Shown here in pieces: positions 37,117 to 57,001 of a stretch of DNA of 64,000 nt. Source of the stretch: Brevundimonas sp. (lineage in GTDB: Bacteria > Pseudomonadota > Alphaproteobacteria > Caulobacterales > Caulobacteraceae); NCBI RefSeq assembly GCF_013912065.1, contig NZ_JACESA010000001.1:1-64000 (forward strand). Direction: 5' to 3'. The number at the start of each line of letters is the position of its first letter. Within the stretch, counting starts at the first letter, position 1. A program made the translations under genes and the position numbers. The notes under the pieces were generated by a model. That model made no database searches and was not told the origin of the DNA. It saw nothing but the letters and a program-made list of their open reading frames with translations.

Positions 37117-38616
37117 CTAGACGGCCTTGCAGTGGCGGTTGATGAAGGCCTCGTGGGTCGGCATCCGCTCGACCGTCTGGCGGATCGACAGCCTGATTTC
37201 CTCCAGCCGACGCTGAATTTGTTCCAGCGTCGCCGTCTCTGTCAGGGGGTCGGGACGCAGCGGCGTCAACCCTTGGCCCAGCATGACGGCGACCCAGCTG
37301 GCCTCCTGGAACAGTTCGTCCTCGACGCGGAAGATACGGCCGCGGCTGCGGAACAGGTCGATCTTCTCGGTCAGGCTGTCGGGCAGGCTCATCGCCCGGA
37401 CCTGTCGCCACAGCGGCGAGTCGTCCCGTTCGGTGGCGTGGTAGTGCAGGATGATGAAGTCGCGGACCCGCTCGAACTCGGTCTGCATCAGCCGGTTGTA
37501 GTTGTCGATGTCGGCCTGGGCGAAGCCGGTGTCGGGGAAGCTGAGCAGCAGTTTCGATAGACCGGACTGGATCAGGTGGATGCTGGTCGATTCCAGCGGT
37601 TCGAGGAAGCCGGAGGCCAGGCCCAGGGACAGGCAGTTCTTGTTCCAGGCCTTGCGCCGACGTCCGGTCGTGAACCGCAGGAAATTGGGTTCGCCCGTGG
37701 CCGGCGCGTCCAGCGAGGCCCGCAGGGTCGCGACGGCCTCATCGTCCGAAATGAAGGGGCTGCAATAGACGTAGCCGTTGCCCGTCCGATGCTGCAGCGG
37801 GATACGCCAGCGCCAGCCCGCCGCCAGGGCCGTCGACTGGGTATAGGGGACAGGATCGGCGACACGGGCGCAGGGCATGGCCACGGCGCGATCGGCCGGC
37901 AGCCAGTGCGTCCAGTCCTCATAGCCGGTCTTCAACGCGCCTTCGATCAACAGGCCGCGGAACCCCGAACAGTCGATGAAGAAGTCGGCCGCCAGTTCGC
38001 GCCCGTCCTCTAGGGTCACGGCGCGGATGAAGCCGTCGTCGCGCAGCACGACGTCGCCGATTCTGCCTTCGTGACGCACGACGCCCCGCGCCTCGGCCTG
38101 TTTGCGCAGGAAGCGTGCATAGAGACCCGCATCGAAATGAAAGGCGTAGGTCATCCGGTGCGGGGCTGAGCCGGCGCCATCGTCCGGACGCGAGAACCGG
38201 CCGGCCCGCGCCGCCGTGGCGGTGATCGAATAGTCGTCGATCTCTCCGGCCAGACCGGCCTGACGCAGCCTCAGCCAGTACTGATGAAAGGCCGTGACGC
38301 CCAGGGGCGCGCCGAAGACGCCGAAGGGGTGGATGTAGCCGTGGCCGTGACGAAGCCAGTCCTGGAAGACGATGCCCAGTTTGAACGTGGCCTGGGTTTC
38401 GCGGATGAACTGGTCTTCGTCGAGGCCGAGCAACTGGTTGAACAGCCGGATCGGCGGAATGGTCGCCTCGCCGACGCCGACCGTGCCGATAGTTTCGGAT
38501 TCGACAAGATCGATGCGGACCGCGCCGCCGAGGATATGGGACAGGACGGCGGCGGCCATCCAGCCGGCCGTGCCGCCGCCGACGATCAGAATGCGCTGAA
38601 CTGGGGCGGGGACCAT
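37117..38616 (-). CDS. FAD-dependent tryptophan-halogenase-family protein 1
   Basis: A 499-aa flavin-dependent halogenase homologue with GGGTAGWMAA (FAD loop), the halogenase WxWxIP signature at WRWRIPLQHRTGNGYVY, the presumed catalytic Lys79 (TFKLGI) and Glu342 (LEPLESTS), which correspond to Lys79 and Glu346 of PrnA. The chemistry would be chlorination or bromination of an electron-rich ring using FADH2 and O2. Homologues sit beside sugar TonB receptors in Caulobacterales and Xanthomonadales, where their substrate is unknown. It overlaps the second halogenase gene by 1 bp. Confidence 0.88.
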   Translation of the reverse strand: MVPAPVQRILIVGGGTAGWMAAAVLSHILGGAVRIDLVESETIGTVGVGEATIPPIRLFNQLLGLDEDQFIRETQATFKLGIVFQDWLRHGHGYIHPFGVFGAPLGVTAFHQYWLRLRQAGLAGEIDDYSITATAARAGRFSRPDDGAGSAPHRMTYAFHFDAGLYARFLRKQAEARGVVRHEGRIGDVVLRDDGFIRAVTLEDGRELAADFFIDCSGFRGLLIEGALKTGYEDWTHWLPADRAVAMPCARVADPVPYTQSTALAAGWRWRIPLQHRTGNGYVYCSPFISDDEAVATLRASLDAPATGEPNFLRFTTGRRRKAWNKNCLSLGLASGFLEPLESTSIHLIQSGLSKLLLSFPDTGFAQADIDNYNRLMQTEFERVRDFIILHYHATERDDSPLWRQVRAMSLPDSLTEKIDLFRSRGRIFRVEDELFQEASWVAVMLGQGLTPLRPDPLTETATLEQIQRRLEEIRLSIRQTVERMPTHEAFINRHCKAV

Positions 38617-40127
38617 CAGGCGTGGCCGGTGAAATGTTCGGAATGGGCGGGCAGGCTGGCGACGGCCTGGCGGATCAAATCGGCGAACCGCGTCGCCTGA
38701 CGTTCGACATCGTCCAGGCCGTCGATCGAGACCAGGGGCGAGGCGCGGCGGGGCCAGACGCCCAGGCCGGTGAAGACGGCGGTCCAGCTGTCCTCGCGGA
38801 AGGACTCGTCCTCCAGCAGCGCGACTTCACCGCGCGCCCGGAACAGATCGATCTTGTGCGCCAAAGTGTCGGGCGGCGCAGTCTCGCGACAGTCTCGCCA
38901 CAGGTCGCCGTCGGTGCGGGTCGCCAGATGATAGTGCAGAATGATGAAGTCCCGGATCCGCTCCATCTCCTGCGCGGAGCGGCGATTGTATTCGCTGATC
39001 AGAGCCGGGTCGAAGCTGCGATCCGAGAACAGATCCAGCAGGCGGCCTATGCCGGTCTGGATCAGGCTTATACTCGTGGACTCCAGCGGTTCGATGAAGC
39101 CGGAGGCGAGACCCAGGGCCACGACATTGCCCTTCCAGGCCTCGCGACGGCGGCCGGCGACGAAGCGCAGCCGGTTCGGCTCCGCCAGGGGAGGGGATTC
39201 GATCTGGCCCAACAGATCGTCGAGCGCGGCTTGGTCCTCGATATGGGCGCTGGAATAGACATAGCCGTTGCCGACCCGGTGCTGGAGCGGAATACGCCAT
39301 TGCCAACCGGCCTGCCGGGCGCGGGCGGTGGTCATCGGCTCGGCCGGTCGCGCGGCGGCGCAGGGCAGGGCGACGGCCCGGTCGCACGGCAGCCAGCGCG
39401 TCCAGTCCTCGTAACCCGCCTGCATCGTCTGTTCGATCAGCAGGCCCCGGAACCCCGAACAGTCGATGAAGAGATCGGCCTCGATCTCACGGCCGTCCTC
39501 CAGCCGGACGGAGCGGACATGGCCTGTCTGGTCGTCGCGCGGCACGTCGACGATCCGCCCTTCGCAGCGGACCACGCCAAGACCCTCCGCCAGGGTGCGC
39601 AGACGCCGCGCGAACAGACCGGCGTCGAACTGGTAAGCGTAGGAGAAATGCGACAGGACCGAACGGGAATCGTCCACGGGCGGTGCGAACCGGCTCGCGC
39701 GCGCCATGGCCGTTGGCAGCGACCAGGCGTCGAGACTGTCGATACGCCCGGCCGCCTTCAGTCGGAACAAATACTGACGCCAGGCCTGGCCCGCGATGAT
39801 CGGGCCATAGTCGCCGAAGCCGTGAAAATATTCCGAGCCCGGCCCGCTCCAATCCTTGAAGGCGATCCCTAGTTTCGCCGTGGCCGCCGTCGAACGGATG
39901 AAGTCGTCCTCGGCCAGACCGACCATCTGAACGAACTGACGGATCGGCGGAATCGTCGCCTCGCCGACGCCGACGGTCCCGATGGCTTCCGATTCGATCA
40001 GGGTGATCTTCAGCGACGGACCGCCGCGGCGGGTGAAGGCGCGGGCCAGGGCCGACGCGGCCATCCAGCCTGCCGTGCCACCGCCCACGATGGCGACATG
40101 GCGCACTTCGCCCGAACGCTGATCCAT
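38616..40127 (-). CDS. FAD-dependent tryptophan-halogenase-family protein 2
   Basis: A 503-aa paralogue of the neighbouring protein, with VGGGTAGWMAASAL, VGVGEATIPPIR, Lys85 in TAKLGIAFKDW, WQWRIPLQHRVGNGYVYSS and LEPLESTSISLIQ, so the main catalytic residues are kept. It is the first gene of a two-gene unit divergent from the TonB receptor, sharing a 234-bp intergenic region that holds a LacI-type operator. Whether it halogenates anything, or is a repurposed flavoprotein linked to glycan uptake, cannot be told from the sequence. Confidence 0.87.
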   Translation of the reverse strand: MDQRSGEVRHVAIVGGGTAGWMAASALARAFTRRGGPSLKITLIESEAIGTVGVGEATIPPIRQFVQMVGLAEDDFIRSTAATAKLGIAFKDWSGPGSEYFHGFGDYGPIIAGQAWRQYLFRLKAAGRIDSLDAWSLPTAMARASRFAPPVDDSRSVLSHFSYAYQFDAGLFARRLRTLAEGLGVVRCEGRIVDVPRDDQTGHVRSVRLEDGREIEADLFIDCSGFRGLLIEQTMQAGYEDWTRWLPCDRAVALPCAAARPAEPMTTARARQAGWQWRIPLQHRVGNGYVYSSAHIEDQAALDDLLGQIESPPLAEPNRLRFVAGRRREAWKGNVVALGLASGFIEPLESTSISLIQTGIGRLLDLFSDRSFDPALISEYNRRSAQEMERIRDFIILHYHLATRTDGDLWRDCRETAPPDTLAHKIDLFRARGEVALLEDESFREDSWTAVFTGLGVWPRRASPLVSIDGLDDVERQATRFADLIRQAVASLPAHSEHFTGHA

Positions 40128-40204
40128 ACCTGTTCCCCCCCCTTCGTCGGTCTAACGCCGATTCATCTACGCATCCTACTCCAACTCGGACGTTTTGAGT
40201 TTTG

Positions 40205-40218
40205 TGGTAGCGCTATCA
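40205..40218 (+). promoter_or_regulatory. LacI-type operator between halogenases and TonB receptor
   Basis: TGGTAGCGCTATCA, one mismatch from the perfect palindrome at 23643-23656. The 17 bp from 40199 to 40215 (GTTTTGTGGTAGCGCTA) are identical to 54206-54222, upstream of the GH3 gene. Confidence 0.8.
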
Positions 40219-40224
40219 GAAAAT

Positions 40225-40361: not shown

Positions 40362-43292
40362 ATGTCTCGTCAGAAACAGGTTCGTCGCGTCGCTCTGTTG
40401 TGTGGAGCCTCGCTGGTCGCCGTGGCGGCCATGATTCCCACGGTCTCGCTTGCTCAGGCACAGTCCGACGACGCAGCCGTCGTCGATGAAGTCGTGGTCA
40501 CCGGCATTCGCGCCCAGCTTCGCTCGGCACAAGCCATCAAGAAGAATTCCGAAGTCATCGTCGATTCGGTGACGGCCGTGGATATCGGAGCCCTGCCGGA
40601 CCGTTCGGTGTCCGAGGCGCTTCAGCGCATCCCGGGCATCACCCTGCAGCGGACCAACTCCGCCCGCGACCCCGCCCGTCTGGCGGCTGAAGGCGGCGGC
40701 GTCTTCGTGCGCGGCCTGTCGGGCGTTCGCTCCGAAACCAACGGGCGCGACATCTTCTCGGCCTCCAGCGGCCGGGGCCTGAGCTTCGAAGACGTATCCG
40801 CGGACCTGCTGTCCGGCGTGGACGTCTACAAGAACGTCGCCGCCAACATGATCGAAGGCGGTATCGCCGGCACGATCAACCTGCGCACCCGCGTGCCCTT
40901 CGACAACGTCGAGCCCCTGCTGGCGATCAACGCCGACTACAACTACGGCGACCTGTCCGAGAAGGGTTTCTGGTCGGGCAGCATCATCGCGTCTGACCGT
41001 TGGGACACCAAGATCGGCGAGTTCGGTCTGCTGGCCAATGTCAGCATCTCGAACGTGGGCAACCGCACCGACAGCATCTCGACCGACCGCTTTGATCCGG
41101 TCGTGCTCGATGCCGGAAATGCGTCCTCGGACGGCACGGGCGCGGCTGGCGAGACGGTCTATATTCCCAAGTACATGGGCTGGCGCACGATCGACTGGGA
41201 GCAGGAGCGCACTGCGGTGGCTCTGGCCGCTCAGTGGCGTCCTAACGATCAGTGGCTGTTCACCCTCCAGGCCTTGGGTTCGCAGGCCGACACCTATAAT
41301 GTCGAATATGCGATGGGAACCGGCACGATTTTGACGCCGAACTCCTCCTACTCCTACAACGCCGAAAACGTGTTCGTTTCGGGCGATATTCCCAACGCCG
41401 AATACACGACCGACACCCGTATCGGTGACGACACCAAGAAGACCGGCGATGTCGCGCTGAACTTCAAATATACGCCAGGCGGCGCCTGGTCATTCAGCGG
41501 CGACCTTCAGTATGTGAAATCGACGGCCGAAATCTATTCGCTGACCGCCTTCACGCAGTTGGAAGACCGTCCGGACATGCGGATCGTCATCGACGGCGAC
41601 CTGCCGACCATCACCTCCACCGGCGGTTCGATGGAAGACAAGTCCAGCTACTGGTGGGCCGCCGCCATGGATCATATCGAGGATAACGAAGCCGACGAAC
41701 TGGCCGGTCGCCTGGACGCGCGCTACGATTTCCAGAACAACGACTTCTTCCGGTCGGTCGAGTTCGGCGTCCGCATGACGGACAAGAACTACACCAATCG
41801 CCAGACCGGCTATAACTGGAGTCTGCTGTCCAACCAGTACTGGCTGGGCAATGCCAATACGGTTTACCTGGACGACACGGGCTACGCCGGCGGGACGCAG
41901 GATCCGCGTCTGTTGGATTCCTCCTTCCTCTATACCTTCGACAACTTCTTCCGTGGCGACACGACGGTTCCAGGCGTGGCCTGGTTCCCGACCGCCGACC
42001 TGCTCAATCAGGGTACGGCGCACGCCTATGACATCCTGAAGAACACCCAGAGCGCCGGCTGGGGCTGGACGCCGCTCAGCGACGATTACGACAGCTATCG
42101 TCTGGGCAGCGGCAACGGCGGCGTGACCGATCTGCAGGAAAAGACCGAGGCCGCCTACATCTACACCCGCTTCGGCAACGACACCGCCTTCTTCGGTCGC
42201 GGGATGGACGGCAATATCGGCCTGCGCGTCGTCAAGACCACCACCGAGACCAACCAGGTCCTCACCCTGCCGACGATAACGGGAACCTGTCCGCCCGCCA
42301 CCAATCCAGCGGCGGACTGCACCGCCTTCAATCAGGCGGTCCAGTTCGTATCCGGCGGGGCCCTGGAGGCGGGCGCCGACATCAGCAAGGACTACACCAA
42401 TGTCCTCCCCAGCCTGAACCTGCGGGCCTTCCTGACTGACACCCTGCAGGCGCGGTTCGCTGTTTCGCGCGCTATCCTGCGGCCGGAGATGTACCAGCTT
42501 CAGCCCTTCACCAATCTGTCGATCAACTTCGAATCCGACGGCTACACGCTGAATCCGACGACGCCCTATACGGGGACGGGCGGTAATCCGAACCTCGAGC
42601 CGCTCAAGGCGACCAACTACGACTTCAGCCTCGAGTGGTATTTCGCGCCGACGGGCAGCCTGACCTTCGCCGCCTTCCACAAGGATTTGAAGGACTACAT
42701 CTTCTCCGGCAGCTCGACCGAGACCTACACCAACGGCGGCGTCACCTACGACTTCCTGATGACGCGCTACGCCAATGGCGACGAGGGCAAGATCGACGGT
42801 TTCGAACTGGCCTATTCCCAGTTCTACGACTTCCTGCCGGGACCGCTCAGCGGCCTGGGCGTCCAGGCCAACTTCACCTATGTCGACAGCAGCGGCGGCC
42901 GGAACACCAGCCAGGATATCCTGAGCGGCGACCAGAACGCCGGCGCGGGCGCGGATCTGCCGCTCGAAGGCCTGTCGAAGACCAGCTACAACGCCGCGCT
43001 GCTGTATGAGAAATACGGCATCTCGGCGCGCCTCGCCTACAACTGGCGCGAGGAGTATCTGATGACGACTTCGGCCGCCAACATCAATGCGCCCGTCTGG
43101 GCCAGCGATTATGGCCAGCTGGACGGTTCGATCTTCTACAGTCTGACCGAAGACGTGAAGATCGGCATCCAGTCGACCAACATCCTGAATGAACGGACCG
43201 TGCTGAAGGTTGGCAACGAGACCCGCAAGCCGGAGTACAACTGGGTGGATACCGATCGCCGGGTCGCCGTGGTGCTTCGCGCCGCCTTCTGA
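40362..43292 (+). CDS. TonB-dependent receptor for xyloglucan oligosaccharides
   Basis: A 976-aa outer-membrane transporter: Sec signal (to about SLAQAQ), TonB box DEVVVTGIR, plug domain (VDIGALPDRSVSEALQRIPG to about 180) and a 22-strand barrel ending WVDTDRRVAVVLRAAF with the terminal Phe used for outer-membrane insertion. It is the large carbohydrate-type receptor common in Caulobacterales. It is followed by the GH35 and GH31 genes and preceded by the operator at 40205, so xyloglucan fragments are the likely cargo. No SusD-like partner is present. A strong terminator follows it at 43309. Confidence 0.92.
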   Translation: MSRQKQVRRVALLCGASLVAVAAMIPTVSLAQAQSDDAAVVDEVVVTGIRAQLRSAQAIKKNSEVIVDSVTAVDIGALPDRSVSEALQRIPGITLQRTNSARDPARLAAEGGGVFVRGLSGVRSETNGRDIFSASSGRGLSFEDVSADLLSGVDVYKNVAANMIEGGIAGTINLRTRVPFDNVEPLLAINADYNYGDLSEKGFWSGSIIASDRWDTKIGEFGLLANVSISNVGNRTDSISTDRFDPVVLDAGNASSDGTGAAGETVYIPKYMGWRTIDWEQERTAVALAAQWRPNDQWLFTLQALGSQADTYNVEYAMGTGTILTPNSSYSYNAENVFVSGDIPNAEYTTDTRIGDDTKKTGDVALNFKYTPGGAWSFSGDLQYVKSTAEIYSLTAFTQLEDRPDMRIVIDGDLPTITSTGGSMEDKSSYWWAAAMDHIEDNEADELAGRLDARYDFQNNDFFRSVEFGVRMTDKNYTNRQTGYNWSLLSNQYWLGNANTVYLDDTGYAGGTQDPRLLDSSFLYTFDNFFRGDTTVPGVAWFPTADLLNQGTAHAYDILKNTQSAGWGWTPLSDDYDSYRLGSGNGGVTDLQEKTEAAYIYTRFGNDTAFFGRGMDGNIGLRVVKTTTETNQVLTLPTITGTCPPATNPAADCTAFNQAVQFVSGGALEAGADISKDYTNVLPSLNLRAFLTDTLQARFAVSRAILRPEMYQLQPFTNLSINFESDGYTLNPTTPYTGTGGNPNLEPLKATNYDFSLEWYFAPTGSLTFAAFHKDLKDYIFSGSSTETYTNGGVTYDFLMTRYANGDEGKIDGFELAYSQFYDFLPGPLSGLGVQANFTYVDSSGGRNTSQDILSGDQNAGAGADLPLEGLSKTSYNAALLYEKYGISARLAYNWREEYLMTTSAANINAPVWASDYGQLDGSIFYSLTEDVKIGIQSTNILNERTVLKVGNETRKPEYNWVDTDRRVAVVLRAAF

Positions 43293-43368: not shown

Positions 43369-45018
43369 ATGGGTGTTTTCGCACGTGGATTGACTTCAGC
43401 CCTATCGGTGGCGGTCCTTTTGGCCGCGACAGCGGGGTCGTCGCTTGCCCAGACGGCCATTCCCCGGCTGGTGGAGCAGAACGGCCGCCACGCCTTGATG
43501 GTCGACGGCGCGCCGTTCACCGTCCTGGGCGCGCAGGTCAACAACTCAAGCAACTATCCGGCCCCCCTGGCCCTGGCCTGGCCCGCCGTCCACCATGTCG
43601 GCGCGAATACGGTTCAGGTTCCCATCGCCTGGGAACAGATCGAACCGGTCGAGGGTCAGTTCGACTTTTCCTTCGTCGATCATCTGGTGCAGGAAGCCCG
43701 CCGCAACGACGTGCGTCTGGTCATCCTGTGGTTCGCGACCTGGAAGAACACGGCGCCCAAATATGCGCCGGCCTGGGTCAAGCTGAATTCCGCGCGCTTT
43801 CCCCATCTGATCCAGAAGGACGGGTCCGAATCCTACGCCATGTCGCCCTATGGGCGCGAGACCTTGGCCGCGGACGCGCGCGCCTTCGCCGCCCTGATGC
43901 GCCACATTCGTCAGATCGACGAACGCCAGCGCACCGTCATTATGGTCCAGCCCGAAAACGAGGTCGGCACCTACGGCTCCGTGCGCGACTATTCCCCCGC
44001 CGCCCAGGCGGCGTTCGAGGGGCCGGTTCCGCAGGTCTTGCTGGATCGGACGGGGCGCTCGCCCGGAACCTGGTCGTCCGTCTTCGGCGAAGAGGCCGAA
44101 GAATTCTTCCACGCCTGGTCCATCGCATCCTATGTCGAGGCCGTCGCGGCGGCCGGCAAGGCGGAATATGCCCTGCCCATGTATGTCAATGCGGCCCTGA
44201 CAGACCCGCTTAAACGCGTGGCGCCGACCAACTACGCCTCGGGCGGTCCGGTGTGGCCCGTGATCGATGTGTGGAAGGCGGCGGCTCCGTCGATCAGCCT
44301 GCTGGCGCCCGATATCTATGACCGCGGCTCGGACAGTTACGAAGGAACGCTGGGCCATTACGCGCGGCCCGACAACGCGCTGTTCGTCGCCGAAACCGGC
44401 AATGATCCGTCGTTCGGTCGCTTCCTGTTTTCGGTGCTCGGGCGCGGCGGCGTGGGCTATTCGGCCTTCGGGATCGACTATACCGGCTACGCCAACTGGC
44501 CGCTGGGCTCCAAGGCCGTCACCCCCGAGACCCTGACCCCGCTGAAGACCAGCTACGCCGTGATGCGCCCCTGGGGACGCGTCTGGGCCCGTGCGGCTTG
44601 GGAAGGCCGCGTCTGGGGCGTCGCCGAACCGGACGACCGTTCCGAACAGAAGATCGACCTGGGGGACTGGACGGCCCGCGTGCGCTATCGGCTCTGGCAG
44701 TTCGGCCTGCCCGAATGGACCTGGCTGGGCGAACAGGGGCCGGCGACCGGCACCGAAAATCCGAATGGCGGCGTCATCATCGCCCAACTCGACAATCCCG
44801 GCGAGTTCTTCGTCAGCGGCATGCATGCGCGCGTCGATTTCGAGTCGAAAGCCTCGACCGACGGCAAGCGTCGCATGGTCGTGCGCTATGAAGAGGGCCA
44901 TTTCGACGAGGCCGGGAAATGGGTCTTCGAACGCATCTGGAACGGCGACCAGACTGATTATGGCCTGAACTTCACCGACCGACCGCAGCTGCTGCGCGTC
45001 GTCACCGCCACCTACTGA
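43369..45018 (+). CDS. GH35 beta-galactosidase (DUF5597-type)
   Basis: A 549-aa exported enzyme (signal to about SSLAQ) expected to remove terminal beta-galactose from xyloglucan side chains. The barrel begins [20 protein letters not shown] and [20 protein letters not shown]. The acid/base is Glu198 in [10 protein letters not shown] and the nucleophile is probably Glu342 in FVAETGND. The C-terminal half matches the DUF5597 type found in Cellvibrio Bgl35A, a known xyloglucan-locus enzyme. Gene order receptor-GH35-GH31 is the same as in that organism. GGGAGG precedes the ATG at 43369. Confidence 0.88.
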
Positions 45019-45044
45019 CTGTATTGAAAGAAGCGAGCGCCCCC

Positions 45045-48281: not shown

Positions 48282-50273
48282 ATGCGCTCGTTCTTGCTTT
48301 CCGCCGCCGCCGCGACCGTCCTGACCGCGACAGCCGGCTCCCTTCAAGCCCAGGTTCAGCCCCCCGTCGCGCCCCTCGTTCAGGCGTCCTCCGTTCAGGC
48401 GCCTGCCGCCCTGCTGGATCCCATGTTCCAGGATCACGCCGTGCTCCAGCGGGGCCGGCCGGTCGCGGTCTGGGGCAGGGCGGCGCCCGGCGCGGCCGTC
48501 TCGGTCGCCCTCGGTCAGACCCAGGTCCAGACGACCGCCGGCGCCGACGGCGCCTGGCGCGCCAGTCTGCCGACCCTGACTGCCGGCGGCCCCTATGTCC
48601 TGACGGCTCAGGCCGGCGGCGCGACCCAGACTGTGTCCGACGTCATGGTCGGCGACGTCTGGCTGTGTTCGGGCCAGTCGAACATGGAGTTCGCGGTTCG
48701 CCAGGCCACCAACGCCGACACCGAGATCGGCGCCGCCAACGACCCGAACCTGCGTCTCTTTCTGGTCGCCCGCTCCAGCCTGCCGGCGCCCTCGTCGGCT
48801 TCAGGTCCGGTGGGGCAATGGCGCACGACCAGCCCGGAAAGCGTGCGCGACTTCTCGGCCGCCTGCTACTACATGGGTCGAGATCTTCGGCGTACGGACA
48901 ATGTTCCTGTCGGTCTGATCTCCGCCTCCTGGGGCGGGTCGATCATCGAGGACTGGCTGAGCCGCGACGCGATCGTCAAACTGGGCGGCCAGGACCAGGC
49001 GCTGAACGCCCTGGACGCCTATGCGCGCGACCCTGCCGAAGGAGACGCCATCTGGCGCGAGGTCACTCAGGCCTGGTGGATGGCCAACGATCCCGGCACT
49101 AAACAGGGCTGGAACCTTCCCCAGACCCGCGACGCCGACTGGGCTCCCATCCCCGCCGAAGGCTTCTGGGAATCGACCCTTCCTGGGCTGGAGACCTTCG
49201 ACGGCGTCGTCTGGCTGCGGAACGAGGTCCAGCTGACCGCCGCCCAGGCGCGCCAGGCCGCGACGCTGGAACTGGGTCCGGTCGACGACGCCGACGTCAC
49301 CTGGGTCAACGGCCGCTACGTCGGCGGCCAGCAGGGCTGGGACACGCCGCGCAGCTACGCCCTGCCGGCCGGAAGCCTGAAGTCGGGCCGCAACCTGATC
49401 GCGGTCGGGGTGCTGGACACCAACGGCGGCGGCGGCGCCTGGGGACCGGCGGCGAACAAGCGGCTGGTGTTCGCGGACGGGACCAGCGTCTCTCTGTCGG
49501 CGCACTGGCGTCACCGCGTCGCCGCGCCCTTGGGCGACCTGCCCAATCCGCCCCGCACGCCCTGGATCGGCGGCAGCGGCACGACGACCCTCTACAACGG
49601 CATGATCGCCCCCCTGGGCGCCTACGGCGTGAAGGGCATGGCCTGGTATCAGGGCGAGTCGAACGTCGGCGACTATGTCGGCTATCGCCGCCTGCTGCCC
49701 GCTCTGTTCGCCGACTGGCGCGCCCGGTTCGAAAACCCCGAGATGCGGATGCTGGTGGTGCAACTGGCGAACTTCGGACCCGCCGCAACCCAGCCGACCA
49801 ACTCCTACTGGGCCGCCCTGCGCGAGAGCCAGCGCACCGTCGTCAACGCCGATCCTTTGGCGGGCCTCGCCGTCGCCCTCGACATCGGCGACCGCTACGA
49901 CATCCACCCCACCAACAAGCTGGAGGTCGGCCGCCGCCTGGCGTTCGAGGCGCGTCGTCTGGACGGGACGACCCAGCCGGTCTCGCCCCAGCCGGTCTCG
50001 GTCGAACGCGGCGCGGACGGCGTCCATGTGCGCTACGCCCCCGGCACGGCTCTGGCCGCCTATGGCTTCAACCGCCCGATCGGTTTCGAACTGTGCGGGG
50101 CCGACAACGCCTGCCGATTCGTCGATGCGACCCTGGTTGGCGATCAGGTGGTGATGGCCTCGGCCCAGCCGACCGACGTCAAGGTGCGCCTGTGCTGGGC
50201 CGACAGCCCGATCTGCAACCTCTACGGCCCCGCCGGCCTCCCGGCGGCCCCGTTCGAGGCCGCCATCCGCTGA
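48282..50273 (+). CDS. Sialate-O-acetylesterase-type esterase (CE20-like xyloglucan acetylesterase)
   Basis: A 663-aa exported protein (signal MRSFLLSAAAATVLTATAGS) with a split SGNH/SASA domain. Ser133 lies in CSGQSNMEF, block MAWYQGESNVGDYVGYR is kept, and the Asp540/His542 pair is in DIHPTNK. Between the Ser block and the later blocks sits a jelly-roll insertion (about 285-390, VDDADVTWVNGRYVGGQQGW). This layout is that of CE20-type xyloglucan acetylesterases, which remove O-acetyl groups from galactosyl residues. ATG 48282 has AGGAGG at 5 bp. It is convergent with the fucosidase gene. Confidence 0.85.
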   Translation: MRSFLLSAAAATVLTATAGSLQAQVQPPVAPLVQASSVQAPAALLDPMFQDHAVLQRGRPVAVWGRAAPGAAVSVALGQTQVQTTAGADGAWRASLPTLTAGGPYVLTAQAGGATQTVSDVMVGDVWLCSGQSNMEFAVRQATNADTEIGAANDPNLRLFLVARSSLPAPSSASGPVGQWRTTSPESVRDFSAACYYMGRDLRRTDNVPVGLISASWGGSIIEDWLSRDAIVKLGGQDQALNALDAYARDPAEGDAIWREVTQAWWMANDPGTKQGWNLPQTRDADWAPIPAEGFWESTLPGLETFDGVVWLRNEVQLTAAQARQAATLELGPVDDADVTWVNGRYVGGQQGWDTPRSYALPAGSLKSGRNLIAVGVLDTNGGGGAWGPAANKRLVFADGTSVSLSAHWRHRVAAPLGDLPNPPRTPWIGGSGTTTLYNGMIAPLGAYGVKGMAWYQGESNVGDYVGYRRLLPALFADWRARFENPEMRMLVVQLANFGPAATQPTNSYWAALRESQRTVVNADPLAGLAVALDIGDRYDIHPTNKLEVGRRLAFEARRLDGTTQPVSPQPVSVERGADGVHVRYAPGTALAAYGFNRPIGFELCGADNACRFVDATLVGDQVVMASAQPTDVKVRLCWADSPICNLYGPAGLPAAPFEAAIR

Positions 50274-50281
50274 TCAGACAC

Positions 50282-50309
50282 GGCGCCGGCCTCAGACCAG
50301 GCCGGCGCC
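50282..50309. terminator. Shared hairpin between convergent esterase and fucosidase genes
   Basis: Perfect 11-bp stem GGCGCCGGCCT / AGGCCGGCGCC with loop CAGACC, spanning the end of the GH29 frame. No T-run on either side, so function as a bidirectional terminator is only likely. Confidence 0.4.
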
Positions 50310-51911
50310 CCTCAGCCGCACGGCAGGCGCCACGGTCACGGGCCGGTTCTCCGGCAGGTCGATGACCAGGCCCTGGTCGCTCTGGCGGAAGGGCAGGGCG
50401 CCGCCGCCCAGCAGTTCGACCGCCTCGACGCGGCCGGCCTGCGGCGTCAGGGTGCGGATCTGCATCCGGCCGTCCTCGGGCCAGTCCAGGGCGAAGGCGT
50501 AGAGGGTCGCGCCCTTGGTCGTGAACCGGATGTCCTGGCCCGTCCACGGCCGGGCCGCGCCTTCGCCGTGCATCCCGCCAACCACCGTCGTCGGCCCCTC
50601 GCCATAGGTGCGCCAGGGCCGGGTCTCGAAGATCGCCTCGCCGTTGACCTTCATCCAGGCGGCGATGTCGGTCAGGATTCGCCGCTCGTCGCCGTCGATG
50701 GAGCCGTCGCCGCGCTGGGGGATGTTCAGCATCAGATTGCCGTTCTTCGACACCACGTCGACCAGCCGCTGCACGACGCTGTGGGCGGGCACATAATAGT
50801 GGTTGGTGAAGCGGGCGCGGTTGTAGTGCCAGTCGCCGATACAGGTGTCGGTCTGCCAGGGTTCGGGTTTCAGGCTGTCGGAGAAGCCGCGCTCGATCGT
50901 CTCGACGATCCCCTTGCGTTGGCGTTCGTCCAGCCGCTTGCCGTTCACGACCGGCAGCTCGCCGCGCCACTGCAGCGAGGCGTTGTAATATTCGGCCGTC
51001 GCCTCCAGCCCGTAGCGACCCAGCGGCAGCTGATAGTTGTCGAAATAGACCATGTCCGGACGATATTTGGTGATCAGGTCGCGCTGACGCGCCACCCAGG
51101 ACCGGACGAAGGCCGGGTTGTTCGGCGGCGGGGTCTCGATCCACTGGCCGTCGCGGGCGTCGTGCCAGGCGTTCATCTCGGCGATGGAAGCGATCCCGTC
51201 CGGCGGGGCGAAGCTGGGGCCGGTGTAGAGCTCCTGCGGGTCCAGACCGTCCCACCATTTGCCGGCGCCGTCCGCCTTCGTGAGGCGCGCGGCGTCATAG
51301 CGAACGCCCTTCAGCGGCCCCTCGGCGTCATAGCCATAGGCCGTCTGCCACCAGTGCCAGGCGTGAGCGCCATGGTTCGACACGGCGAAGCGCAGACCCC
51401 GCGCCCGCACCGCCTTTTCCCAGGTCCCGACGATGTCGCGCTTGGGGCCGACGCGCATCACGTTCCAGTCGTGATGGGCGCTGTCGAACAGATCCAGGTT
51501 GTCGTGGTGATTGGCCATCGACATGATGTAGCGGGCGCCGGCCGCCTGATAGAGGTCCAGCAGGCCCTCGGGGTCCCACTGGTCGGCCTTCCACTGGTCG
51601 ATGAACTCCATGAAGCCGTACCGGCTGGGGTGGCCGTAGGTGGCGACATGATGGTCGTAGAAGGGGTGGCCCTGGATATACATCAGCCGGCCGTACCAGT
51701 CGCCGAACTCGGGCACGCACTGCGGCCCCCAGTGCGACCAGATGCCGAACTTGGCGTCCCGGAACCAGTCGGGGGTCTTGTAGCCTTCGATCAGGCTGTC
51801 CCAGGTGGGCTTGAACGGGCCGGATGCTCCGCCGTTCGGCGCCGTGGCGCACGCCCCCAGCATCGAAGCTGAGGCGCCAGCGCCGAGAAGTCCGCGTCGT
51901 GACAGGTTCAT
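50292..51911 (-). CDS. GH29 alpha-L-fucosidase
   Basis: A 539-aa exported enzyme with a twin-Arg start and lipobox (LSRRGLLGAGASASMLGAC) expected to remove alpha-L-fucose from side chains. GH29 features are WFRDAKFGIWSHWGPQCVPE, the nucleophile Asp291 in PDMVYFDNYQLP, DWHYNRARF and SKNGNLMLNIPQRGDGSID. The acid/base Glu of this family is poorly conserved and I did not place it. Its start overlaps the GH74 stop (ATGA). Known xyloglucan loci often use GH95 fucosidases here; GH29 is an alternative solution. Confidence 0.88.
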   Translation of the reverse strand: MNLSRRGLLGAGASASMLGACATAPNGGASGPFKPTWDSLIEGYKTPDWFRDAKFGIWSHWGPQCVPEFGDWYGRLMYIQGHPFYDHHVATYGHPSRYGFMEFIDQWKADQWDPEGLLDLYQAAGARYIMSMANHHDNLDLFDSAHHDWNVMRVGPKRDIVGTWEKAVRARGLRFAVSNHGAHAWHWWQTAYGYDAEGPLKGVRYDAARLTKADGAGKWWDGLDPQELYTGPSFAPPDGIASIAEMNAWHDARDGQWIETPPPNNPAFVRSWVARQRDLITKYRPDMVYFDNYQLPLGRYGLEATAEYYNASLQWRGELPVVNGKRLDERQRKGIVETIERGFSDSLKPEPWQTDTCIGDWHYNRARFTNHYYVPAHSVVQRLVDVVSKNGNLMLNIPQRGDGSIDGDERRILTDIAAWMKVNGEAIFETRPWRTYGEGPTTVVGGMHGEGAARPWTGQDIRFTTKGATLYAFALDWPEDGRMQIRTLTPQAGRVEAVELLGGGALPFRQSDQGLVIDLPENRPVTVAPAVRLRGAGLV

Positions 51912-54169
51912 GCCGGTTCTCCATAGACGACGCCGCGTCCGTCGGTGGCCACATAGACGCGGCCGAACACCCTTGGATCACCCGCGATGGCGCGATAACG
52001 GCGACCATATTCGTGTTGGTCGTCATTGACCCGCATCCACGACCGGCCGCGATCATCGGACCGGAAGACGCCCCGCACCGCGCCTTGCGTGCCGATGGCG
52101 AACAGGGCGGGGTAGGGCGAGCCGGCGGGCGGCTTGCCGAAGTCCAGCATCTCGACTCTGAGGCCGCCGTCGACGCGTTCGAAGCTCTGGCCGCCGTCGC
52201 GGCTGTGGAACAGGCCCGACCGCGACACCAGCCACAGATCCCCGTCATGTCCGGGCGTCGCCTTCAAGGGGAAGGCCTGTTCGCGCCAGGTCGGTCGGTC
52301 GGCGGAGACGTCGGGCAGGCCGCGCATCGGCACGGGGGCGAAGCTGCGCGCCTCGTCCACGCTGACGAACCAGTCGCCGGTCGTGAAATCGAGGGCGTAG
52401 AACAGGCCGGAATCCTTGCGATCCGCCACCGGCCGCAGCAGCGGGGGCAGGCCGAGGCAGGGCCGCCAGCTCGCCCCCCTGTCGTCCGACCAGACCGTCT
52501 GGGGCGTGGACAGCACGAAGGTCGATCCATTGGCCGACACGGTGATCGGGGCGTCGCGGTACAGGTCCATGCGCGGATTGTCCGGCGAGGCCGTGGTCGC
52601 GCCCGAGGCGGGGCGGGGGCGACCCAGAGGCTTCCAGCTACGCCCCGCGTCATCGGACCAGGCCAGGGTCGAGCCGTCGTGTCCCTCGGACCCGACCCCC
52701 TCGTGCGGCGTACCGCTGCGGACCACCACGGTCGGGGCAAGTCCAGCGTAGTCGATCTGATTGGTGTTGGCGAAGACGGGGGTGGTGAACTGCAGGTCCG
52801 GCGACCGGTCCAGGTCTTCATGGGCGAAACCGGATATGTCGCCAAACCCGGTCAGGAGGTGCGGACCCACCGGGGGACTGACCAGGGTGATGACCGCCGT
52901 CTGTTCGATGCCCTCGACCCAGGGCTTCCAGTCGGTCGGGCGGCCTGCGTCGGCGGCCGACAGGTTGCGCGTCTGATAGACGGTCGCCCCGGTCGCATAG
53001 ACCAGCCGGTCGCTGTCGAACGGGTCCAGCGCCAGGGCCGCGATCCACCAGCCGAAGTCGGGCTTGTCGTTGCCCCAGTTCAGGAAGGGGGTTGCGCTGA
53101 CGTCGTGGCGGGCCGCCTCGCGCAGGCTGATCCAGCTTTGACCATCGTCGGTGCTGCGCCAGATCGTGTCCCCCGGCTGCCAACGGTTCAGCGTCGAGAC
53201 CATGATCACGCCGGGCCGCTTGTGATCAACGGCCACCCCCATGAAGCCCCCAAGGGGGCGGGGCGGGGTGATGTCGGTCCAGTCGCCGGTGTTCGTATCC
53301 AGCCGCCAGACTGACCCGTCCGTGACGCCGTTGGGGCCTATGCCCAGGGTGCAGGTCACATACAGCATGCCCCGCATGTCCAGTTCGGCCTTGGCCGCCG
53401 ACAGTTCGGCGCGCGGCCCGCCCGCGACCGGCCGCCAGGTCCGGCCCGCGTCGTCGGAGCGATAGAGGGCGTGCTCGTGTGGGTCGGCGACGCCGACGAA
53501 CAGGGTCCGCGACGCCTCGCCTCGGGTTCCGCTTCGGGCATCGAAGATGACGAAGCTGAGGCCGCCGTGCGTCTCACGCCCCGTCGGCAGGCCCAGGCCC
53601 TGCAGGGGGAAGCTGTCGACCCTGCCCCAGGTGCGGCCGCCGTCGGTCGAGCGCTGAAGGCCGTCGTGACGCGATCCGAAATAGAGGATGCGGTTGTCGT
53701 TCGGATCGATGGCCAGCCGTTCGCCCAGGCCGCGTCCGTCCTCGTTGCCGCCCATCCGGAACGGGACCTCGGTGCGCGACCAGGTCTGGCCCCGGTCGTT
53801 TGACCGCAGCATGGCGCCCGGGTCGCCCCGATGCACCCCGACCGCCATATGGACCACGTCCGCGTCGACCGGATCGGCCGCCACGCTCTCGACGCCGAAG
53901 TCGCTGGAAAGCGGGCTGGAGTCCTGCAGCGGCAGCCAGCGGTTCGCGCCCCTGTCGAAGCGATAGGCGCCCCCCATGTCCGACCGGGCATAGGCCAGCC
54001 CTGGCTCGACCCGGCTGAACACGATTCCCGGTATGAAGCCCCCGGCCCCGACCTTGACGTTGCGCCAGCGATAGGTCGGCGCGGCGGCCTGCGCCTGTCC
54101 GACAGTCGCGAGGCCGCCCAGGCCGAGGGCCAGAACACCCGCGGCTCGTCGCGTGATTTCGTGTCTCAT
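51908..54169 (-). CDS. GH74 xyloglucanase (endo-beta-1,4-glucanase)
   Basis: A 753-aa exported enzyme with a twin-Arg-like signal (ITRRAAGVLALGLGGLA). It has two seven-bladed propellers made of repeated SxDxGxTW/SW (Asp-box) blades such as RSNDRGQTWSR, RSTDGGRTWGR, RSTDDGQSWIS and RSDDRGRSWMR. The opening WRNVKVGAGGFIPGIVFSR and YARSDMGGAYR with catalytic Asp64 is the GH74 signature. It would cut the xyloglucan backbone into oligosaccharides. No carbohydrate-binding module is attached. Promoter and operator lie in the 282-bp gap shared with the divergent GH3 gene. Confidence 0.92.
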   Translation of the reverse strand: MRHEITRRAAGVLALGLGGLATVGQAQAAAPTYRWRNVKVGAGGFIPGIVFSRVEPGLAYARSDMGGAYRFDRGANRWLPLQDSSPLSSDFGVESVAADPVDADVVHMAVGVHRGDPGAMLRSNDRGQTWSRTEVPFRMGGNEDGRGLGERLAIDPNDNRILYFGSRHDGLQRSTDGGRTWGRVDSFPLQGLGLPTGRETHGGLSFVIFDARSGTRGEASRTLFVGVADPHEHALYRSDDAGRTWRPVAGGPRAELSAAKAELDMRGMLYVTCTLGIGPNGVTDGSVWRLDTNTGDWTDITPPRPLGGFMGVAVDHKRPGVIMVSTLNRWQPGDTIWRSTDDGQSWISLREAARHDVSATPFLNWGNDKPDFGWWIAALALDPFDSDRLVYATGATVYQTRNLSAADAGRPTDWKPWVEGIEQTAVITLVSPPVGPHLLTGFGDISGFAHEDLDRSPDLQFTTPVFANTNQIDYAGLAPTVVVRSGTPHEGVGSEGHDGSTLAWSDDAGRSWKPLGRPRPASGATTASPDNPRMDLYRDAPITVSANGSTFVLSTPQTVWSDDRGASWRPCLGLPPLLRPVADRKDSGLFYALDFTTGDWFVSVDEARSFAPVPMRGLPDVSADRPTWREQAFPLKATPGHDGDLWLVSRSGLFHSRDGGQSFERVDGGLRVEMLDFGKPPAGSPYPALFAIGTQGAVRGVFRSDDRGRSWMRVNDDQHEYGRRYRAIAGDPRVFGRVYVATDGRGVVYGEPA

Positions 54170-54211: not shown

Positions 54212-54225
54212 TGGTAGCGCTAACT
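54212..54225 (+). promoter_or_regulatory. LacI-type operator between GH74 and GH3 genes
   Basis: TGGTAGCGCTAACT, two mismatches from the perfect site at 23643. It is 43 bp before the GH74 start and 226 bp before the GH3 start; TTGACA follows at 54234-54239. Confidence 0.75.
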
Positions 54226-54320: not shown

Positions 54321-54455
54321 ATGGATTTCGCCGCCCCCGGTGCGTCTGCGACGCCTGATCTTTTGCACCCTGAGCGAACTTCCGGTGCGGTCTTCACGAC
54401 CGCACCGGGCTTTTCGTCACTGTTTCCCGCACGCCGATTGACGGATCCGACATGA
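54321..54455 (+). CDS. Possible 44-aa leader peptide overlapping the GH3 start
   Basis: A 44-codon frame begins ATGGATTTCGCCGCC, about 12 bp after AGAGAGG, and ends in a TGA that overlaps the GH3 ATG (ATGA). The GH3 start has no good ribosome-binding site of its own, so translational coupling would make sense. The sequence (MDFAAPGASATPDLL...) has no recognisable domain, and the frame contains the hairpin at 54382. It may be chance. Confidence 0.25.
   Translation: MDFAAPGASATPDLLHPERTSGAVFTTAPGFSSLFPARRLTDPT
54382..54414 (+). terminator. Intrinsic terminator or attenuator in the GH3 leader
   Basis: Perfect 11-bp stem CCGGTGCGGTC / GACCGCACCGG with loop TTCAC, followed by GCTTTTC. It lies 38 bp before the GH3 ATG and downstream of the presumed promoter, so it could act as an attenuator. 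Confidence 0.65.
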
Positions 54456-57001
54456 CCTCGCGTTCTCCGAACTTCCGCCGCAGCGCCGTTTCTGTCCTTG
54501 CGCTCAGTTTGGCCCTGGCCGCCGGAGCCTGTGCGACCCAGGCGTCGCGCACTGCCCCGGTCACCTATGTGACGGCCGCGGAGACCATCGTCACCGAGGC
54601 CAGTCGCGCCCATCCCGACCTCTGGCCCCAGGCCGCATCCCCGGCGGCCATGTCGGACGCCGCGACCGAAGCCTTCGTCACCGAACTGATGAGCCGGATG
54701 ACGCTGGAGGAGAAGGTCGGGCAGACGATCCAGGCCGACATCGCCTCGATCAAGCCGGAAGACCTGCTGACCTATCCGCTGGGTTCGATCCTGGCGGGCG
54801 GCAATTCCTCGCCGGGCGGAGACGAGCGCGCCTCGGCCCGGGAATGGGTCGAACTGGCCCAGGCCTTCCGCGCCGCCGTCGCCCAGCGTCCCGGCGCCAG
54901 GATCCCAATGATCTACGGCATCGACGCCGTCCACGGGCACAACAATATCGTCGGCGCCACCATCTTTCCGCACAACAGCGGCCTGGGGGCCATGCGCGAC
55001 CCCGACCTGATCCGCCGTATCGGCGAGGCCACGGCGCTGGAAGTCGCGGTCACGGGGGCCGACTGGACCTTCGGCCCCACCCTGGCCGTGCCGCAGGACG
55101 ACCGTTGGGGCCGCGCCTATGAAGGTTATGGCGAGAACCCCGAGATCGCCCAAAGCTACGCCGGACCCATGACCCTGGGACTGCAAGGCGCGCTGTCGGC
55201 CGATCATCCGCTGACGCCGGGCCGTATCGCCGGCTCCGCCAAACATTTCCTGGCCGACGGCGGCACGACGGGCGGTCACGACCAGGGCGATTTCGCCGGC
55301 TCGGAGCAGGAACTGATCCGCACCCATCTGTCCGGCTATCCCCAGGCGATCGACGCCGGCGTGCTGTCGATCATGGCCAGCTTCTCCAGTTGGAACGGCG
55401 TCAAACATTCGGGCAACGAGACCATATTGACCGACGTGCTGCGCGGCCCGTTGGGCTTCGATGGCTTCGTGGTGTCGGATTGGAACGCCCACGGGCAGCT
55501 GCCCGGCTGTTCGAACGAAAGCTGCGCCCTGGCCTTCAACGCCGGCATCGACATGTTCATGGCGCCCGACAGCTGGAAGCCCCTTTATCAGAACACCCTG
55601 GCCCAGGCGCGGTCGGGCGAGATCCCGATGGCGCGACTGGACGAGGCCGTGCGCCGCATCCTGCGGGTCAAGGTCAAGACCGGCCTGTTCAACGAGAGCC
55701 GCCCCGTCGAGGGCCATTTGAATGAACTGGGCTCGCCCGCTCACCGCGCCATCGCCCGCGAGGCGGTGCGCAAGTCGCTGGTCCTACTGAAGAACGAGGG
55801 CTCGGTCCTGCCGATCCGCTCCGGCGCGCGCGTGCTGGTCGCGGGCCATGCCGACGACATCGGCCAGGCCTCGGGCGGCTGGACCCTGACATGGCAGGGG
55901 ACGGGCAACACCAACGCCGACTTCCCCAACGGCCAGTCGATCTGGGGCGGGATACAGGAGGCGGTCGTCGCCGGGGGCGGACAGGCGACGCTCAGCCCCG
56001 AGGGCGCCTTCACTCAGAAGCCGGACGTGGCCATCGTCGTCTTCGGCGAGACCCCCTATGCCGAGTTCCAGGGCGACGTCGACACGCTGGACTTCCTGCC
56101 GACCGAGCCGCTGGAGACACTGAAACGCCTGAAGGCGGCGGGGATTCCGACGGTGTCGGTCTTCCTGTCGGGGCGGCCGTTGTGGACCAATCCGGAGATC
56201 AACGCCTCGGACGCCTTCGTCGCCGCCTGGCTGCCGGGCACCGAAGGCGGCGGCGTCGCCGACGTGTTGATCGGCGATGCGGCGGGCAAGCCGCGCACCG
56301 ATTTCAACGGCAAACTGTCCTTCAGCTGGCCCAAGGACGCCAGGGGCGAACCGCTGAACGTCGGCCAGCCCGGCTATGACCCGCAGTTCGCCTATGGCTA
56401 CGGCCTGACCTACGCCCAGGGCGGCCGGGTCGGAACCCTGTCGGAAGAGAGCGGCGTGGCGGGCGAGATCGGCAGCGTCGACCGCTACTTCGTCGATGGA
56501 CGCTTCGTGGCGCCCTGGTCGCTGATGCTGCGCGACGCCGGCGGCGAGTTCCGGCTGGGCAATGAAAGCAGCGGCGCCAGCCCGCGCGCCGGGGTCAGCG
56601 TCCGTTCCACCGACGGCGCCGGTCAGGAATCGGCCCGCGCCCTGACCTTCGGCCCGGCCGGCGGTCAGGCCCTGATCGCCGCAAGACCCGTCGATCTGGT
56701 CCGCCAGGCGAACGGCGAGATGGCCATGGTCTTCAACTACAGGGTCGACGCCCGGCCGACCGCGCCGGTCATGCTGACGCTCGGCGCAGGCCAGGTCGAT
56801 GTGACGTCCATCTTCAACGCCGCGCCGCTGGGCCAATGGCGGACGCTGAAGGTCCGGCTGTCCTGCCTGCGAGACGCGGGGGCGAACCTGTCTGCGGTCG
56901 ACCAGCCCTGGGGTCTGAGTTCGACCGGCGTGTTCGGCGTGACGGTCGAGGACATCCGCCTGGGTTCGAACGAGGGCGACGCCATCTGCCCCGCTGACTG
57001 A
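54452..57001 (+). CDS. GH3 beta-glucosidase (exo-1,4-beta-glucanase)
   Basis: An 849-aa lipoprotein (lipobox AAGAC) that would release glucose from de-branched cello-oligosaccharides. Features are an N-terminal barrel with IPMIYGIDAVHGHNN, KHFLADGGTTGGHDQG and nucleophile Asp343 in GFVVSDWNAHG; an alpha/beta sandwich domain (about 440-650) with SLVLLKNEGSVLPI; and a C-terminal beta domain of ~190 residues like that of marine 1,4-beta-D-glucan glucohydrolases. The start is fixed by the signal peptide. It is divergent from the GH74 gene and ends at a bidirectional terminator. Confidence 0.92.
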   Translation: MTSRSPNFRRSAVSVLALSLALAAGACATQASRTAPVTYVTAAETIVTEASRAHPDLWPQAASPAAMSDAATEAFVTELMSRMTLEEKVGQTIQADIASIKPEDLLTYPLGSILAGGNSSPGGDERASAREWVELAQAFRAAVAQRPGARIPMIYGIDAVHGHNNIVGATIFPHNSGLGAMRDPDLIRRIGEATALEVAVTGADWTFGPTLAVPQDDRWGRAYEGYGENPEIAQSYAGPMTLGLQGALSADHPLTPGRIAGSAKHFLADGGTTGGHDQGDFAGSEQELIRTHLSGYPQAIDAGVLSIMASFSSWNGVKHSGNETILTDVLRGPLGFDGFVVSDWNAHGQLPGCSNESCALAFNAGIDMFMAPDSWKPLYQNTLAQARSGEIPMARLDEAVRRILRVKVKTGLFNESRPVEGHLNELGSPAHRAIAREAVRKSLVLLKNEGSVLPIRSGARVLVAGHADDIGQASGGWTLTWQGTGNTNADFPNGQSIWGGIQEAVVAGGGQATLSPEGAFTQKPDVAIVVFGETPYAEFQGDVDTLDFLPTEPLETLKRLKAAGIPTVSVFLSGRPLWTNPEINASDAFVAAWLPGTEGGGVADVLIGDAAGKPRTDFNGKLSFSWPKDARGEPLNVGQPGYDPQFAYGYGLTYAQGGRVGTLSEESGVAGEIGSVDRYFVDGRFVAPWSLMLRDAGGEFRLGNESSGASPRAGVSVRSTDGAGQESARALTFGPAGGQALIAARPVDLVRQANGEMAMVFNYRVDARPTAPVMLTLGAGQVDVTSIFNAAPLGQWRTLKVRLSCLRDAGANLSAVDQPWGLSSTGVFGVTVEDIRLGSNEGDAICPAD

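Follow-up and report, generated by a model that had tools for sequence, protein, structure and literature searches.

A putative xyloglucan utilization locus of Brevundimonas and its predicted links with xylose and galactose catabolism

Which polysaccharide is served by a group of glycoside hydrolases (GH) that surrounds a TonB-dependent receptor (TBDR), and how is this group connected to the sugar metabolism of its host? The question is raised by a stretch of 64,000 nucleotides from Brevundimonas sp. (assembly GCF_013912065.1, contig NZ_JACESA010000001.1, positions 1 to 64,000 of the forward strand), hereafter the window, in which a TBDR gene is clustered with genes for GH35, GH31, GH29, GH74 and GH3 enzymes and for an acetylesterase resembling carbohydrate esterase family 20 (CE20). 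An earlier note, made from the sequence, had read the cluster as a locus for dismantling fully decorated xyloglucan. Our analysis largely supports this reading, for which fucose removal is the weaker part, and we consider it very probable that the window carries a complete xyloglucan utilization system, integrated with sugar catabolism and induced by xylose through a LacI-type repressor.

The identity of the enzymes is the basis of this proposal. Pfam, NCBIfam and comparison with solved structures recovered all seven genes of the earlier note, with their catalytic residues, where it had placed them, and its family assignments were upheld (Table 1). The closest solved relatives of the GH74, GH31, GH35 and esterase proteins are xyloglucan enzymes: 7kmp, 7kmn and 7kmm are presumably enzymes of the Xanthomonas citri xyloglucan locus (7kmm being XacXaeA, the founder of CE20), and we take 2cn2 to be Xgh74A. 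Three alpha-xylosidases, 7kmp, 2xvg (Xyl31A) and BoGH31A (5jou), are the top structure matches of the GH31 protein at 847-1088 bits, the next match reaching 312; a plain alpha-glucosidase, the possibility that the earlier note had set against its own reading, is thereby ruled out. The GH31 protein aligns continuously from end to end with 7kmp, and Pfam makes no PA14 call in it at E<=0.001. Likewise, the GH74 propeller aligns with the xyloglucan hydrolase 2cn2 over residues 26-753 (E 3e-154), and such full-length matches rule out a merely sortilin-like propeller, the other possibility that had been raised. We take D64 and D444 to be its two catalytic aspartates; D64 is aligned with the position at which 2cn2 and 2cn3 have different residues. 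The CE20 features are present as well, namely the serine of GQSNM, the DxH motif and an inserted domain within a split SGNH fold. The best structural relative of the GH3 protein is an exo-1,3/1,4-beta-glucanase (3usz), and those of the GH29 protein are 7snk, a fucosidase by its title, and the exo-alpha-L-galactosidase 7ljj/7lk7/7lnp. Among the GH35 matches, 3u7v is a Caulobacter and 4d1i a Cellvibrio structure according to PMC4285296.

The GH29 and GH74 genes overlap by four bases and GH35 and GH31 almost touch, which is an operon-like spacing. Translation of GH31 probably begins with the ATG codon at 45045, upstream of a lipobox, and not at 45024, and that of the esterase probably at 48282 (MRSFLLSA..., a Sec-like signal found in several relatives), not at 48078. 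None of the ten proteins encoded at 37-58 kb was recognized as a SusD-like lipoprotein. The ancillary loop of the esterase (49326-49352) reads QGWDTPR in 16 of the 18 extracted Brevundimonas copies, the other two being fragments, and this motif is intermediate between the published CE20 cluster motifs.

The catalytic residues are conserved in every Brevundimonas homologue where the alignment column can be read. In alignments of script-extracted homologues, D587/D664 of GH31 and E198/E342 of GH35 are kept in 20/20, and S201/D608/H610 of CE20 (numbered from the 48078 reading frame) in 16/18, where the two remaining copies, of genomes G291 and G294, were extracted as fragments only. D291/E340 of GH29 are present in 16/17 (the G201 copy is broken), D64 of GH74 in 17/18 (the G201 copy is incomplete), D444 in 17/18 (the G200 copy is truncated by the end of the stretch) and D343 of GH3 in 12/15, the last three being cut by stretch ends. 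In G201 (locus L059) GH31 is split by stops and GH29 is short, a sign of decay or of an assembly error.

A GH31 match occurs in 20 of 131 Brevundimonas genomes and in 19 of 200 genomes sampled from the order, including that of the window. The order and orientation GH35-GH31-CE20-GH29-GH74 are kept in 17 of the 20 Brevundimonas GH31 loci, so that the clustering is not due to chance, and GH3 comes next after this block in 14. The three exceptions are G291, whose contig ends after CE20; G200, which is rearranged, with CE20 and GH29 undetected; and L058, which shows no CE20 in the ~2.5 kb remaining before the contig end. Sphingomonadales, Oxalobacteraceae and Asticcacaulis include GH35-GH31 loci that lack most of the other genes; these genes were detected through their resemblance to the proteins of the window, which misses distant family members. 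Records titled Pseudanabaena biceps (L082) and Bacillus sp. 2B10 (L104) contain a Brevundimonas-like (74% in GH31) and a Sphingomonas-like (52%) locus, respectively, and are probably contaminated or mislabelled.

The range given by the earlier note covers the receptor and the enzymes but stops short of a linked block at 22.6-37.1 kb, which is predicted to encode a Weimberg-type and a De Ley-Doudoroff-type set for oxidative xylose and galactose catabolism. These routes match the xylose and the galactose of xyloglucan. The adjoining genes encode this oxidative xylose route and not xylose isomerase and xylulokinase, the rest of the genome not having been searched for xylose isomerase. The XylX-like protein also matches 2-keto-3-deoxy-D-arabinonate dehydratase at 63 bits, with Pfam FAA_hydrolase below cut-off. 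The IlvD/Edd dehydratase gene of the block accompanies the locus in the genus: it is present in 19/20 genomes with GH31 and in 26/111 without (Fisher p 1e-9, a value that, like the one below, is too small because genomes are not independent samples, which counts against the strength of the association). It lies within 14 kb of GH31 in 15 of the 20, in two opposite orientations, since the block is inverted but still adjoining in five of them (G283, G314, G294, G250 and G232); the distance is unreadable at contig breaks in G234, G076 and G252, the gene is on a separate contig of the 7-contig assembly in G231, and it was not found in G200. The whole xylose/xyloglucan stretch is flanked by the rod-shape genes mreC, PBP2 and rodA (17567-22540) and by cytochrome/quinol oxidase genes (58541-62495), and looks as if set between housekeeping genes.

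A possible common control of these units is a palindrome. A search of promoter regions turned up TGGTAGCGCTACCA upstream of the xylX-like gene and TGGTAGCGCTATCA in the region that separates the TBDR gene from a divergent halogenase-like gene, trpH2, ~80 bp from the start of the latter. In the 3.54 Mb genome, TGNTAGCGCTANCA has exactly five exact sites (~0.1 expected from base composition, and 0 for the reversed control), all beside sugar genes: the two just named, one at C1:116889 at a GH3 gene whose product has an Fn3-like domain, one at C1:152769 between a second GH29 and a divergent GH42, and one at C5:2771 at a GH39 gene. If the sites are operators, the latter GH3 and GH39 must start slightly downstream, because the site overlaps the start of the longest reading frame. 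At least two sites occur in 20/20 genomes with GH31, and any site in 11/111 without (Fisher p 4e-16); 29/45 genomes with the dehydratase have a site, versus 2/86 without it. Within the loci, 14 of 17 have the core TAGCGCTA no more than 320 bp ahead of the receptor and 15 of 17 have it ahead of GH74, the window included and three loci being unreadable in each case. Among 83 further loci (L060-L076 and L091-L156), of which 82 are by title or code not from Brevundimonas and one (L095) is, there are 25 sites in 19 loci versus 0 for reversed-pattern controls, and in another genus of this family, probably Caulobacter (our group g3), 10 of 11 loci have a site, which in eight lies 127-147 bp before the receptor.

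Some counts weigh against this interpretation. The window by itself proves nothing about the palindrome, because its three sites at <=3 mismatches compare with 1.5 expected and 21 of 100 shuffles reach three. Across the 131 genomes of the genus, 81 true sites face 15 reversed-control sites, one each in 15 genomes. Moreover, the core is missing before the receptor in G200, G291 and G201 and before GH74 in G283 and G231; G200 is divergent, and G291 and G201 are two of four loci with another type of receptor, described below. Taken together, the palindrome apparently ties the xyloglucan locus to xylose catabolism and to the halogenase-like genes, and co-regulation by a xylose-responsive repressor is predicted with good confidence. 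In Caulobacter crescentus a 20-bp palindrome is likewise described, which precedes genes of xylose metabolism as well as TBDR genes induced by xylose (work cited by Blanvillain 2007, PMC1790865); we think that TGNTAGCGCTANCA may be the same element. The second GH29 and its divergent GH42 beta-galactosidase (G000:C1:151130-154926; L180:4131-7927) have the same palindrome between them and for this reason probably belong to the same regulon. In the same promoter region of the receptor, a perfect 18-base palindrome, CGCCGCTTATAAGCGGCG, lies at 40315-40332, 29 bases before the TBDR start, and a scan of 40000-40500 for sigma-70-type promoters found none.

Table 1. Genes and operator-like sites of the window discussed in the text, in order of position
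Feature	Position	Strand	Evidence
LacI-family regulator, candidate XylR	22578..23621	+	Pfam LacI, Peripla_BP_3; directly before xylose operon
Operator-like palindrome TGGTAGCGCTACCA	23643..23656	+	Before xylX-like gene
XylX-like fumarylacetoacetate-hydrolase-fold protein, candidate 2-keto-3-deoxyxylonate dehydratase	23685..24836	+	PDB 9kkt (FAH-family) 500 bits
D-xylose 1-dehydrogenase XylB	24833..25591	+	NF053674 439 bits, cut-off 400
MFS sugar transporter, start approximate	25600..27084	+	Sugar_tr 358 bits, frame of ORF 25165-27084
Alpha-ketoglutaric semialdehyde dehydrogenase-like	27163..28605	+	Best NCBIfam NF042993 511 bits, below cut-off 770; Aldedh
SMP-30 sugar lactonase	28609..29463	+	Pfam SGL
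Aldose 1-epimerase	29460..30347	+	Pfam Aldose_epim
2-dehydro-3-deoxy-6-phosphogalactonate (KDPGal) aldolase, start approximate	30355..31000	-	NF006600 273.6 bits, cut-off 207
2-keto-3-deoxygalactonokinase	30984..31877	-	Pfam DGOK 285 bits
SSS sodium:solute symporter	31879..33525	-	Pfam SSF, TIGR00813
IclR-family regulator	33544..34416	+	Pfam HTH_IclR
Sugar dehydrogenase, SDR, XylB-like	34550..35299	+	NF053674 322 bits, below equivalog cut-off 400
IlvD/Edd sugar-acid dehydratase, galactonate dehydratase-like	35274..37103	+	PDB 7m3k galactonate dehydratase 1073 bits
Flavin-dependent halogenase-like TrpH1	37117..38616	-	Trp_halogenase 662 bits; PDB 9luq, 6y1w, 6frl; WRWRIP, Lys, EPLES motifs
Flavin-dependent halogenase-like TrpH2	38616..40127	-	Trp_halogenase 600 bits; WQWRIP; touches TrpH1
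Operator-like TGGTAGCGCTATCA	40205..40218	+	Divergent TrpH2/TBDR region
TBDR	40362..43292	+	TIGR01782 648 bits, cut-off 310
GH35 beta-galactosidase with DUF5597	43369..45018	+	PDB 3u7v 716 bits, 7kmn, 4d1i; Pfam DUF5597
GH31 alpha-xylosidase, lipoprotein-type signal	45045..47975	+	PDB 7kmp 1088 bits, 2xvg 1066 bits
CE20-type acetylesterase, split SGNH domain	48282..50273	+	PDB 7kmm 372 bits; GQSNM + DIH; Pfam/NCBIfam: SASA-type esterase
GH29 alpha-L-fucosidase family	50292..51911	-	Alpha_L_fucos 295 bits; 4-base overlap with GH74
GH74 endo-xyloglucanase	51908..54169	-	PDB 2cn2 518 bits; both catalytic Asp; Pfam/NCBIfam: BNR propeller
Degenerate operator-like TGGTAGCGCTAACT	54212..54225	+	Divergent GH74/GH3 region; 2 mismatches
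GH3 beta-glucosidase / exo-glucanase with Exop_C, lipoprotein-type signal	54452..57001	+	PDB 3usz 701 bits; Pfam
MFS transporter, metabolite:H+ symporter type	57072..58424	-	MFS_1; TIGR00883 255 bits, below cut-off 443

In the model that we propose, exported GH74 would cut the xyloglucan backbone and the TBDR would import the resulting oligosaccharides, from which, in the periplasm, CE20 would take off acetyl groups, GH29 fucose (or L-galactose), GH35 galactose, GH31 xylose and GH3 glucose. Inner-membrane carriers would hand the sugars onward, the membership of the MFS transporter at 57072..58424 in the system being uncertain; xylose would enter the adjoining Weimberg-type pathway and galactose the adjoining De Ley-Doudoroff-type pathway. 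Control would lie with a LacI-type repressor, very likely encoded by the 22578 gene, which would bind TGNTAGCGCTANCA at the xylose operon, at the halogenase/receptor promoter and, through a weaker site, at the GH74/GH3 promoter, and xylose released from the polymer would induce the whole chain through this repressor.

That xyloglucan is the target of the locus is predicted with high confidence. The model is built on gene content, catalytic residues, conserved linkage and palindrome sites, all of them observed; the substrate, the localization of the proteins, the identity of the repressor and induction enter it as predictions, as do growth and enzyme activity. In G231 the enzymes have no detected receptor beside them. 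Fucose removal by GH29 is only inferred, because the specificity of this family is loose: it is not predictable from sequence, and the best matches include an alpha-L-galactosidase. A GH29 fucosidase, FgFCO1, can act on xyloglucan (PMC7711723). Use of fucose itself is unproven, given that no fucose isomerase (FucI) match was found in the genome and that the fucose route is represented there by one borderline enolase-superfamily hit (MR_MLE_C). The true target might be another type of xyloglucan, for example L-galactosylated xyloglucan or arabinoxyloglucan, in which case GH29 would serve as an alpha-L-galactosidase or cleave a different linkage. The mixed relatives of GH29 (7snk and 7ljj/7lk7/7lnp) would suit this explanation, but none of the ten proteins encoded at 37-58 kb belongs to a dedicated arabinofuranosidase family and the GH35 and GH31 pair suits galacto-xyloglucan, and we regard it as rather unlikely. 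Far less probable still, in our judgement, is that two unrelated units are merely neighbours, the xyloglucan unit being TBDR-GH35-GH31-CE20 and a separate glucan unit being formed by GH29-GH74 with GH3. There are indeed two divergent promoter regions, loci L057/L088 have GH3 and GH74 in a different order with CE20 and GH29 not found, and many loci outside Brevundimonas consist of GH35-GH31 without these genes; nevertheless, the gene order conserved in the genus and the same palindrome core before both halves argue for one system.

The single xyloglucan system so favoured can be set beside those already described. The combination that characterizes a xyloglucan utilization locus (XyGUL) is present, since the TBDR is clustered with xyloglucan-type GH31 and GH35 and with a fucosidase-family GH29 of predicted activity; of the features of the Xanthomonas type, GH74 and CE20 are in the cluster, whereas GH95 and neighbouring xylose isomerase and xylulokinase are not. 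The X. citri XyGUL (XAC1769-XAC1774; Vieira 2021, PMC8245568) has TBDR, GH74, GH31, GH35 and the CE20 acetylesterase in common with Brevundimonas and, like it, is adjoined by genes for sugar catabolism and for an MFS carrier. It differs by a GH95 in place of the GH29 fucosidase, by two TonB-dependent transporters instead of one, by the isomerase/xylulokinase route instead of oxidative xylose and galactose pathways, and by having neither a GH3 nor paired halogenases within the cluster. No GH95 (PF22124) match was found in the whole Brevundimonas genome. The XyGUL of Cellvibrio japonicus (Larsbrink 2014, PMC4285296) shares TBDR, GH35, the GH31 alpha-xylosidase and a clustered fucosidase, but it has four genes only, with a GH95 fucosidase and without clustered GH74, CE20 and GH3; neither of the words 'halogenase' and 'GH74' occurs in the text of the paper. 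The earlier note had considered GH29 a distinction from the Cellvibrio and Xanthomonas loci, which holds against these two but not against Pseudoxanthomonas wuyuanensis, whose CE20 cluster VI locus (Teune 2025, PMC12313940) also combines a proteobacterial CE20 with GH29, GH31_4 and GH74, and whose CE20 loop is Gly-Trp-acidic as in Brevundimonas. That locus, which we liken by its description, additionally has GH2, GH9, GH27 and GH51, and arabinoxyloglucan is its predicted substrate. On sugarcane bagasse, Brevundimonas GH29 and GH35 transcripts are highly expressed early, and GH74 was suggested for Brevundimonas at 12 h, while at 48 h it was ascribed mainly to Paenibacillus (PMC5834485). Among the papers listed by a literature search covering Caulobacter, Caulobacterales and Brevundimonas, no title or abstract opening describes a xyloglucan locus in Caulobacterales. 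With respect to the xylose regulon of C. crescentus (PMC1790865), the likeness lies in a palindrome placed before both xylose and TBDR genes.

The range of the earlier note also contains two Trp_halogenase genes (37117-40127, minus strand) that it had not mentioned; they lie end to end, divergent from the receptor and with a common promoter region. In the genome of the window there are five Trp_halogenase matches, which form three units, and all five stand next to one of the 54 TonB barrel matches. A TrpH1 homologue is present in 26 of 36 whole-genome loci, always within 2.5 kb of a TBDR, and in 16 of 80 named-record loci, in 15 of them adjoining a receptor; the two sets share some genomes, and GH31 was the criterion for selecting loci. 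Four loci (G218, G291, G201 and G232) have another receptor, ~40% identical to that of the window, together with a single halogenase ~60% identical to TrpH1, which reads WQWRIQ in all four versus WxWRIP in 22/22 others; the remaining loci mostly have the pair, and G236 has TrpH2 only. The enzymes are thus retained where receptor and halogenase change jointly: between G218 and G211, GH31 is 96% shared and the receptor 40%. On an enzyme tree (quick method, SH-aLRT only; G201 was excluded for its broken GH31) the other-receptor loci fall in three separate places, and their label requires 3 changes against a shuffled mean of 2.9; it is not clustered, because 500/500 shuffles are as low. This fits, weakly and on three rows only, repeated replacement of the receptor.

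Joint change supports a functional tie between halogenase and receptor but does not prove it, because physical linkage can explain it. The chances seem evenly balanced that these genes are passengers, kept beside receptors by descent and linkage and with no role in sugar uptake. Linkage alone would account for their replacement together with the receptor, and enzymes occur without an adjoining halogenase in G231, in G200/L057 (where the nearest halogenase-receptor group is ~13 kb upstream) and in many loci outside Brevundimonas. Furthermore, two close relatives of solved structure, BrvH and Xcc4156, act on indoles and not on free tryptophan, and their natural substrate is not known (for BrvH, PMC5945002). 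What speaks against passengers is that all halogenase matches of the genome and all 26 TrpH1 homologues of the whole-genome loci stand so close to a TBDR, and that the palindrome shared with xylose genes lies so near the start of TrpH2. We retain, as a tentative and somewhat less probable proposal, that the pair may take an active part in the TonB-dependent uptake of xyloglucan. It would share the divergent promoter of the receptor and a xylose-type operator, be exchanged jointly with this receptor, and have as its target the receptor itself, a co-imported aromatic compound or a surface or periplasmic partner. Neighbouring flavin-dependent halogenases are likewise described in the same genus, as the BrvH/gene 13 pair of Brevundimonas BAL3 (Neubauer 2018, PMC5945002); TrpH1 matches BrvH (6frl) at 483 bits, and TonB is absent from the main text of that paper. 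No report of a halogenase beside a TonB receptor was found in the titles and abstract openings listed by a literature search, which leaves subscription journals mostly outside and so does not show absence.

With our analysis, the kind of xyloglucan locus known from Xanthomonas and Cellvibrio is predicted for Brevundimonas as well. The shared palindrome suggests that polymer attack, uptake and oxidative catabolism of xylose and galactose may form one regulon, with unlinked members such as the second GH29 with GH42, the GH3 and the GH39. The locus also offers a compact and testable setting for the function of halogenase-like flavoproteins beside TonB receptors, and a role of these proteins in uptake, if true, would provide a natural setting for a halogenase clade whose substrates are unknown.

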